Part shown: one piece after another, positions 23,043-24,140 of the stretch
How positions within the stretch are numbered: the first letter of the stretch is position 1
Layout: each line of letters starts with the position of its first letter
Assembly (NCBI GenBank): GCA_039938515.1
Contig: JBDUUL010000014.1
Coordinates: 1 to 45,133, forward strand
Direction: 5' to 3'
Length of the DNA stretch: 45,133 bases
Source: Nitrososphaera sp.
GTDB taxonomy: Archaea > Thermoproteota > Nitrososphaeria > Nitrososphaerales > Nitrososphaeraceae
Notes under the pieces: generated by a model
What the model was told of the DNA's origin: nothing
The model's input: the letters and a program-made list of their open reading frames with translations, nothing else
Database searches by the model: none
Made by a program: the position numbers and the translations under genes

Positions 23043-23146
23043 TTTAATCGGTAGGCAGGCACGGAAATCCTAGGAGGACCTGCCTCCAGCCCGCGGGAAA
23101 TATGCTTATGTTTTAATAGGGGCAAAAGGTGTGTATCTCCACAAAA

Positions 23147-23653
23147 ATGGGACGTGTTGGTAAGGTCGCGTTTCCCGTGATTTTGGCGTTAGGGGCATTG
23201 ACGGGCTATCTTTGCTACACATGGTTTTACGGAGCAATCCCTCATCTTGGGACAGTAGCTTCTCCTTACAGGCAGGAGCTTCCTCCACCAGTCGCCCAGC
23301 CGACTTCCGCTGGGAACTCCAGTAGCGCTCCGGTTGATGAGTCAAAGTTTACAGATATCGTTAATATCGACATCCTCAAGGGCGCGTCTGTTCAGGGCAG
23401 TCCTTCATATTCGCCATCGCCCGCAAAGGCAAACAGCGACGCCCTGATAAAGTGGACCAACCAGGATACTGCAACCCACACGGCGACAAACGGCAAGTCA
23501 TCTGACGACCCAACCTCCGGCAAGTTGTTTGACTCGGGCTTTTTGGCGCCGGGCAAGTCGTTCAGCGTCCCGGCTTCAAAGCTGGGCAAGGGCGACCATT
23601 CTTACTACTGTCAGGTTCACCCGTTCATGACCTCTGTAATCACCGTCCAATAG
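23147..23653 (+). CDS. Membrane-anchored single-domain cupredoxin (plastocyanin-like)
   Basis: From ATG 23147 (168 aa) there is one N-terminal membrane anchor, a Pro/Ser-rich linker, and a blue-copper domain (about residues 75-168). The type 1 copper ligands are visible: His in TATHTAT, then Cys, His and Met in CQVHPFM. It is closely related to both domains of the double cupredoxin at 29357-30271 (shared ILKGASVQGS and SDDP.SGK.FD). A GTG at 23129 would add six residues; a TATA-like ttttaata at 23111-23118 favours the ATG. Role: outward-facing electron carrier, partner unknown. Confidence 0.85.
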   Translation: MGRVGKVAFPVILALGALTGYLCYTWFYGAIPHLGTVASPYRQELPPPVAQPTSAGNSSSAPVDESKFTDIVNIDILKGASVQGSPSYSPSPAKANSDALIKWTNQDTATHTATNGKSSDDPTSGKLFDSGFLAPGKSFSVPASKLGKGDHSYYCQVHPFMTSVITVQ

Positions 23654-23663
23654 TGGACTGCGA

Positions 23664-24047
23664 CTAGGCGTGCCGGGCGACGGCAGTGGCGAGTTCCCGG
23701 CTCCCAATGATTGCGCCCAGCGATAGGCCCACATTTCCCAGAACCAGCAGGGCGAAGTTCAGATACTGTCTGTTGTCAAGCATCCCGGTTGCTTCAAATG
23801 CAAATGAGGACATTGTAGTCAGCGAACCGCAGAACCCGACCGCGACCAAAAGGGAATAGCGGGGCTCGAGATTGTAAAGAGCAGATATTGCAGAGAACGC
23901 GCCGAGGATTGCGCTCCCTAGCACGTTAACTATGAGAATGTTAAGCGGGAGTGTCCCAAAGATTAGTGGAGATTCCGTGATTTTGAACCTGATTAGCGCG
24001 CCTGCAACTGCTCCGGCAGCAATAAGAGCAACCTCAATCCCCTTCAA
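23664..24047 (-). CDS. crcB: Fluoride channel CrcB/Fluc
   Basis: The 127-aa protein has four membrane helices and the Fluc signatures NVLGSAILG (helix 2) and GFCGSLTTMSSFAFE (helix 3 break). Fluc channels are dual-topology dimers exporting fluoride. The TTG start is preceded by GGTG. The 5' leader holds a structure matching the fluoride riboswitch (24077-24140), which independently supports the function. Confidence 0.93.
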   Translation of the reverse strand: MKGIEVALIAAGAVAGALIRFKITESPLIFGTLPLNILIVNVLGSAILGAFSAISALYNLEPRYSLLVAVGFCGSLTTMSSFAFEATGMLDNRQYLNFALLVLGNVGLSLGAIIGSRELATAVARHA

Positions 24048-24076: not shown

Positions 24077-24140
24077 GGCAGGCATTATCAGCACCCCTCA
24101 GGTGCGGTTTTGGCTTTCTGCCAAGGCTAATGCCATAGCC
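24077..24140 (-). ncRNA. Fluoride (crcB) riboswitch aptamer
   Basis: Read on the minus strand from 24140, GGCT..AGCC forms the first stem; its loop is ATG followed by GCATT, and GGCATT pairs perfectly with AATGCC near 24082-24087 to form the pseudoknot. AAAC precedes the last stem GCACC/GGTGC, followed by TGAT. These correspond to the fluoride-binding A-U-G of the first loop, the AAAC, and the U-G-A-U and downstream U of known aptamers. The one difference is a small extra hairpin (GGC, AGAAA, GCC) between stem 1 and AAAC. The element lies 30 bases before the crcB start and just after the predicted transcription start. Confidence 0.85.

Follow-up and report, generated by a model that had tools for sequence, protein, structure and literature searches.

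A fluoride riboswitch aptamer before crcB in a Nitrososphaera genome and a covarying helix that may connect it to translation

The crcB leader on the minus strand of the window (the whole stretch of 45,133 nucleotides analysed here, from Nitrososphaera sp. contig JBDUUL010000014.1) carries what is, judged from sequence comparison, a true fluoride riboswitch, ordinary in its class and presumably able to bind fluoride. What this locus appears to add is a specific, covarying platform for translational control. Sensor and platform very probably form a translational ON switch, in which a helix would hide the crcB start and the fluoride-stabilised pseudoknot would free it. Translational fluoride riboswitches are a class already known from Thermococcus, and the comparison indicates that the on/off part has newly become visible in this lineage; no description of a start-region platform in ammonia-oxidising archaea was found in searchable papers. 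Sequence comparison within Nitrososphaeria makes the complete sensor and platform legible: one set of bases covaries with either of two mutually exclusive partners, and this dual covariation yields exact mutations to test.

A cmscan search returned a match to RF01734 at 24149-24072 (minus strand), which spans the full model (positions 1-64 of 64), reaches 43.8 bits where the gathering score is 34 (E 4.7e-11) and is the sole RF01734 match in the 2.56 Mb genome searched. The preliminary description, written from the letters alone, had placed a fluoride riboswitch aptamer before crcB and proposed to check it by an RF01734 search of the minus strand and by covariation in related Nitrososphaeria leaders. 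Its reading is borne out by the score above the cut-off, by the conserved position of the element, by a covarying pseudoknot and by the matching gene, and the elements it had named (P1, the GGCATT/AATGCC pseudoknot, AAAC, P3 and TGAT) were all recovered on the minus strand. From sequence and CM alignment, P1 is formed by GGCT (24140-24137) and AGCC (24128-24125). P3 (24105-24091), supported by CM alignment and the minimum-energy fold, pairs GCACC (24105-24101) with GGTGC (24095-24091) around TGAGG. The 5' pseudoknot strand GGCATT (24134-24129) pairs and covaries with the 3' strand AATGCC (24086-24081), placed by CM alignment and covariation, and TGAT (24090-24087) can be read directly ahead of the latter. 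Both linchpin residues are found at their expected positions: A 24088, within TGAT, is by position the equivalent of the Bacillus cereus A40 linchpin, and U 24080, directly after the pseudoknot strand, corresponds by position to B. cereus U48. The role of the linchpin has been described (PMC8752731).

When 300 genomes of the class were searched, 71 gave a match to RF01734 at E ≤ 0.001, and 62 exceed the cut-off. In the pseudoknot, 99.3% of cells are paired and four of the six pairs have changed on both sides, a level that none of 500 shuffles attained; covariation of the pseudoknot, like that of the start-region helix described below, was scored on 25 distinct combinations.

The gene that this aptamer precedes, by 24 bases from the end of the Rfam match, is the fluoride-related crcB (23664-24047, minus strand), which encodes a Fluc-type fluoride channel of 127 aa. 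Its product matches the CRCB profile PF02537 at 74.8 bits against a cut-off of 32.9 (E 7.8e-21), and no other protein of the genome matches this profile. The TTG start at 24047 was set by comparison with the homologues of relatives, which begin with MKGIE... An upstream ORF beginning with ATG 24061 (24061-24044, minus strand, MVGAI*, ATGGTGGGCGCGATTTGA), whose TGA overlaps the crcB TTG, is not kept in relatives and is regarded as a side effect of the UGGUGGGC arm. Downstream of crcB lies a convergent gene (23129-23653, plus strand) that has no Pfam match and resembles a small secreted cupredoxin with the ending YYCQVHPFM.

The preliminary description had also pointed to an extra hairpin, GGC/GCC, between P1 and AAAC. 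The hairpin is present and is longer than stated, with a stem of 5 bp, TTGGC/GCCAA (24124-24120 and 24114-24110), closed by AGAAA. We take this hairpin (24124-24110) to be the optional P2 of the motif. Its supposed oddity did not hold, as each of the 71 leaders parsed from relatives (60 distinct sequences) has a stem at this site, so that P2 is a feature of the whole lineage and not peculiar to the window's genome. Compensatory changes are seen at pairs 3-5: the third changes from G-C to A-T, the fourth mostly from G-C to A-T, and the fifth varies among A-T, C-G, T-A and G-C. The length of P2 in related leaders runs from 13 to about 36 bases. In the Rfam model P2 has no columns and is mostly aligned as an insertion, and the constant stems of published structures are labelled P1 and P3 (PMC11077080).

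An inverted repeat overlooked in the preliminary description, UGCCUGCCA ... UGGUGGGCG, ties the start region of crcB to the pseudoknot. Its 5' arm UGCCUGCCA (24084-24076, minus strand) takes in four bases of the pseudoknot strand (UGCC) together with the linchpin U, and its 3' arm UGGUGGGCG (24060-24052, minus strand) contains GGUG and lies just before TTG 24047. The arms form nine pairs, three of them G-U, which makes this helix weaker than those of most relatives, and the repeat by itself is only mildly unusual (shuffle p 0.034); it gains its weight because the relatives keep the helix. Since UGCC and the linchpin U are shared with the aptamer, the helix over the translation start region and the pseudoknot of the ligand-bound fold exclude each other.

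When the leaders are placed side by side, the ends of the aptamers recur reverse-complemented just before the start codon, as in TGTCTACC...GGTAGACA and TGCCTACC...GGTGGGCA, and again in CTCCTACC...GGTAGGAG and TGTCTCCA...TGGAGACA. In 59 of 72 leaders (families f1, f2, f11, f14 and f18) the pseudoknot tail pairs with downstream sequence at a score of 7 or more out of 8, against 0.67 expected from shuffled downstream sequence. Perfect pairing was seen in 47% of the leaders' own tail combinations and in 9.6% when tails were swapped between genera. In the helix alignment 97% of cells are paired and six of eight pairs have changed on both sides; its rows were picked by complementarity, which favours the helix, and the swap and start-anchored tests weigh more. 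The start-anchored test, tied to the gene start and not to the repeat, used the crcB loci of named genomes, in which the aptamer core was recognised by pattern at 16 of 80 (one of them, L167, probably a chance match). Ten of these 16 leaders carry the helix, against 0.06 expected, and the distance from the end of the partner to the start codon is 0-11 bases in all but two. Three strands change together, GGC/GCC/GGC in some leaders and GAC/GUC/GAC in others, the pseudoknot covarying at the very bases of the helix.

Such repeats could also be read as a DNA operator for a repressor, with the aptamer match incidental, as GTCTACC...GGTAGAC is near-palindromic and the spacing is 5-20 bases in many leaders. 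This explanation is very unlikely: one arm belongs to the fluoride pseudoknot, its changes matched by covariation of a third strand, that of the P1 loop; the spacing varies from 5 to 41, unlike that of an operator; and the repeat is well removed from the promoter, on its downstream side. Equally improbable is a decayed aptamer that has lost its function in the window's genome, an idea to which the window's tail (UGC, against UAC in nearly all relatives) and the extra G-U pairs of its helix lend something. The pseudoknot pairs, linchpin positions, P1, P2, P3 and TATA spacing are all intact, however, and the UAC-to-UGC substitution preserves pairing, turning A-U into G-U. The same substitution gives rise to a perfect 7-bp helix between P2 and the aptamer tail, UUGGCAG/CUGCCAA (24123-24117 with 24081-24075), which was rejected as a general platform: it depends on the window's own change and reaches -20.2 kcal/mol, against -29.6 kcal/mol for the start-region helix, with P1-P3 in place.

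The predicted energy of the start-region helix in the window is -11.3 kcal/mol against -6.2 kcal/mol for the pseudoknot strands, and all 64 leaders evaluated are predicted to favour the start-region hairpin over the pseudoknot strands, in calculations that leave out the tertiary contacts of the pseudoknot and Mg2+. With the pseudoknot bases blocked in the fold, the mean unpaired probability of GGUGGGC rises from 0.29 to 0.55 and that of the start codon is unchanged. Because of this unchanged start codon, and because the helix is absent from the free minimum-energy fold of the leader, thermodynamic support for the switch is partial. GGUG is complementary to CACC near the 3' end of 16S rRNA (GGATCACCTCCT), a sequence taken from two relatives, as the window's assembly lacks a 16S rRNA. 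It is at best a weak Shine-Dalgarno or ribosome-binding site, and the related family f2 has only GGU, so the hiding of the start may act by steric block.

For the 5' end of the transcript, a TATA-like box, TTTATC (24171-24166, minus strand), lies 31-26 bases before P1. Across 67 leaders of relatives, A+T content is highest (0.79-0.97) at 30-25 bases ahead of P1, and an A-rich, BRE-like stretch precedes this peak. As the position of TTTATC coincides with this peak, in agreement with the TATA box that the preliminary description had used to set the transcript start before the aptamer, transcription would begin just before P1, a few bases ahead of 24140. The leader would then measure about 95 bases, and the crcB mRNA would not be leaderless. 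A ligand-sensing RNA had been called notable in archaea known for leaderless mRNAs; given the precedent in Thermococcus kodakarensis, a fluoride riboswitch in an archaeon is in itself no surprise. Experimentally supported natural riboswitches are very few in archaea.

The translational switch would thus work as follows. The crcB mRNA would start at or slightly ahead of the aptamer, with its P1, P2, P3 and the pseudoknot from the P1 loop. In the absence of fluoride, 24084-24076 would pair with 24060-24052 directly before TTG, which would hinder ribosome entry and keep translation low. Fluoride and Mg2+ would stabilise the pseudoknot and the reverse Hoogsteen linchpin pair, both of which need bases of the helix; the start region would then be released and more CrcB made. 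We infer this mechanism from precedents in the class, namely pseudoknot strand exchange in bacteria and the translational T. kodakarensis switch. It suggests that archaea often without strong Shine-Dalgarno sites can regulate translation by covering the start region. The preliminary description had proposed translational control or some other route, and the conserved helix favours the former and makes it specific.

The other route would be a genuine aptamer acting on transcription or mRNA stability, through archaeal termination or through control over where RNase can reach the start-region hairpin. Termination is the mode of the best-studied bacterial fluoride switches (PMC11077080, PMC13273304), and the start-region hairpin could double as a processing site. 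No T-run follows the aptamer, as had been noted before, and neither a minus-strand terminator-like site after it nor an intrinsic terminator overlapping its 3' end, as in a transcriptional switch, was seen, though sigma-70 and terminator scans are uninformative for an archaeon. Neither termination nor decay requires the conserved partner strand to track the start codon at 0-11 bases, and this explanation is considered unlikely, if less so than the operator.

The translational switch can be placed among known members of the class. With RF01734 the window has in common P1, P3, the pseudoknot, the linchpin positions, a site before a fluoride channel gene and a score over the curated cut-off; it differs by its conserved P2, an insertion to the Rfam model, and by having no terminator. 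The transcriptional switches of B. cereus and Thermotoga petrophila exchange the same six pseudoknot bases between aptamer and platform, and in bacteria such bases are strand-exchanged into terminators (PMC13273304); their competing helix forms an intrinsic terminator, whereas that of the window lies over the start region. The same paper lists fluoride riboswitches that act on translation in Pseudomonas syringae and Burkholderia; these share with the window the lack of a terminator and the proposed mode of control, but are bacterial. The T. kodakarensis element, likewise archaeal, is reported to be an inducible switch acting on translation (Speed et al., 2018, cited through PMC8241225 and PMC11077080). 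That element is upstream of TK0513 according to PMC4247193, in contrast to the position directly before crcB in the window. A 2021 paper names it as the only experimentally supported natural archaeal riboswitch (PMC8241225).

The start-region helix is not used in every lineage. In family f4 and several other Thermoproteota a second type of candidate platform was found, whose downstream repeat is complementary to AACCGCC plus the 5' strand of P3 and not to the pseudoknot strand. Of 29 leaders examined at the level of the phylum, 10 show this second pairing at p ≤ 0.01, with the partner often 25-40 bases downstream; one example, AACCGCTCGT/GCGAGCGGTT, scores 9.5 of 10. The loci concerned are those of f4 (L018, L037, L039, L061, L063) together with L091, L092, L101, L102, L103, L112 and L119.

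In relatives, aptamers are also found ahead of genes for Na+/H+ exchangers (PF00999), for MutS-like proteins (PF00488) and for NuoH/HyfC-type subunits (PF00146), in agreement with the gene classes mutS, K+ or Cl- transport and formate hydrogen lyase (Weinberg 2010). Genome G087 has six aptamers and genome G185 eight, clustered within about 20 kb. These fluoride islands (L071, 1369-19960, and L072, 314-4842, on G087:C37; L073 and L074 on G185:C57) also encode TFB, enolase, a universal stress protein, MFS and cupredoxin proteins and, in six genes, a hydrogenase-like complex. A riboswitch ahead of a general transcription factor would be unusual. A lineage-wide translational switch of ammonia-oxidising archaea, with the pseudoknot strand as anti-start strand, combined with a marine multi-gene regulon (islands of TFB, hydrogenase-like membrane complex and enolase), is a serious but still tentative possibility; if true, a metal-fluoride RNA sensor would feed into global transcription in some marine members. 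At f2 loci, among them L071, L073 and L022, a short ORF of 27-65 codons often comes first after the helix, ahead of the main gene (TFB, NuoH-like, MFS or crcB), which might suggest a leader peptide as the immediate target.

By pattern search, 64 of 80 related crcB loci (L124-L201) have no recognisable aptamer upstream, and 0 RF01734 matches were returned among the genomes listed for g2, a genus of the same family; the switch has therefore been gained or lost often. The CrcB proteins of L123 and L197 (both titled Bathyarchaeota) and of L137 (titled Nitrospirales) are 59-61% identical to that of the window, pointing to mislabelled bins or transfer, and L123 and L197 also carry the Nitrososphaera-type leader.
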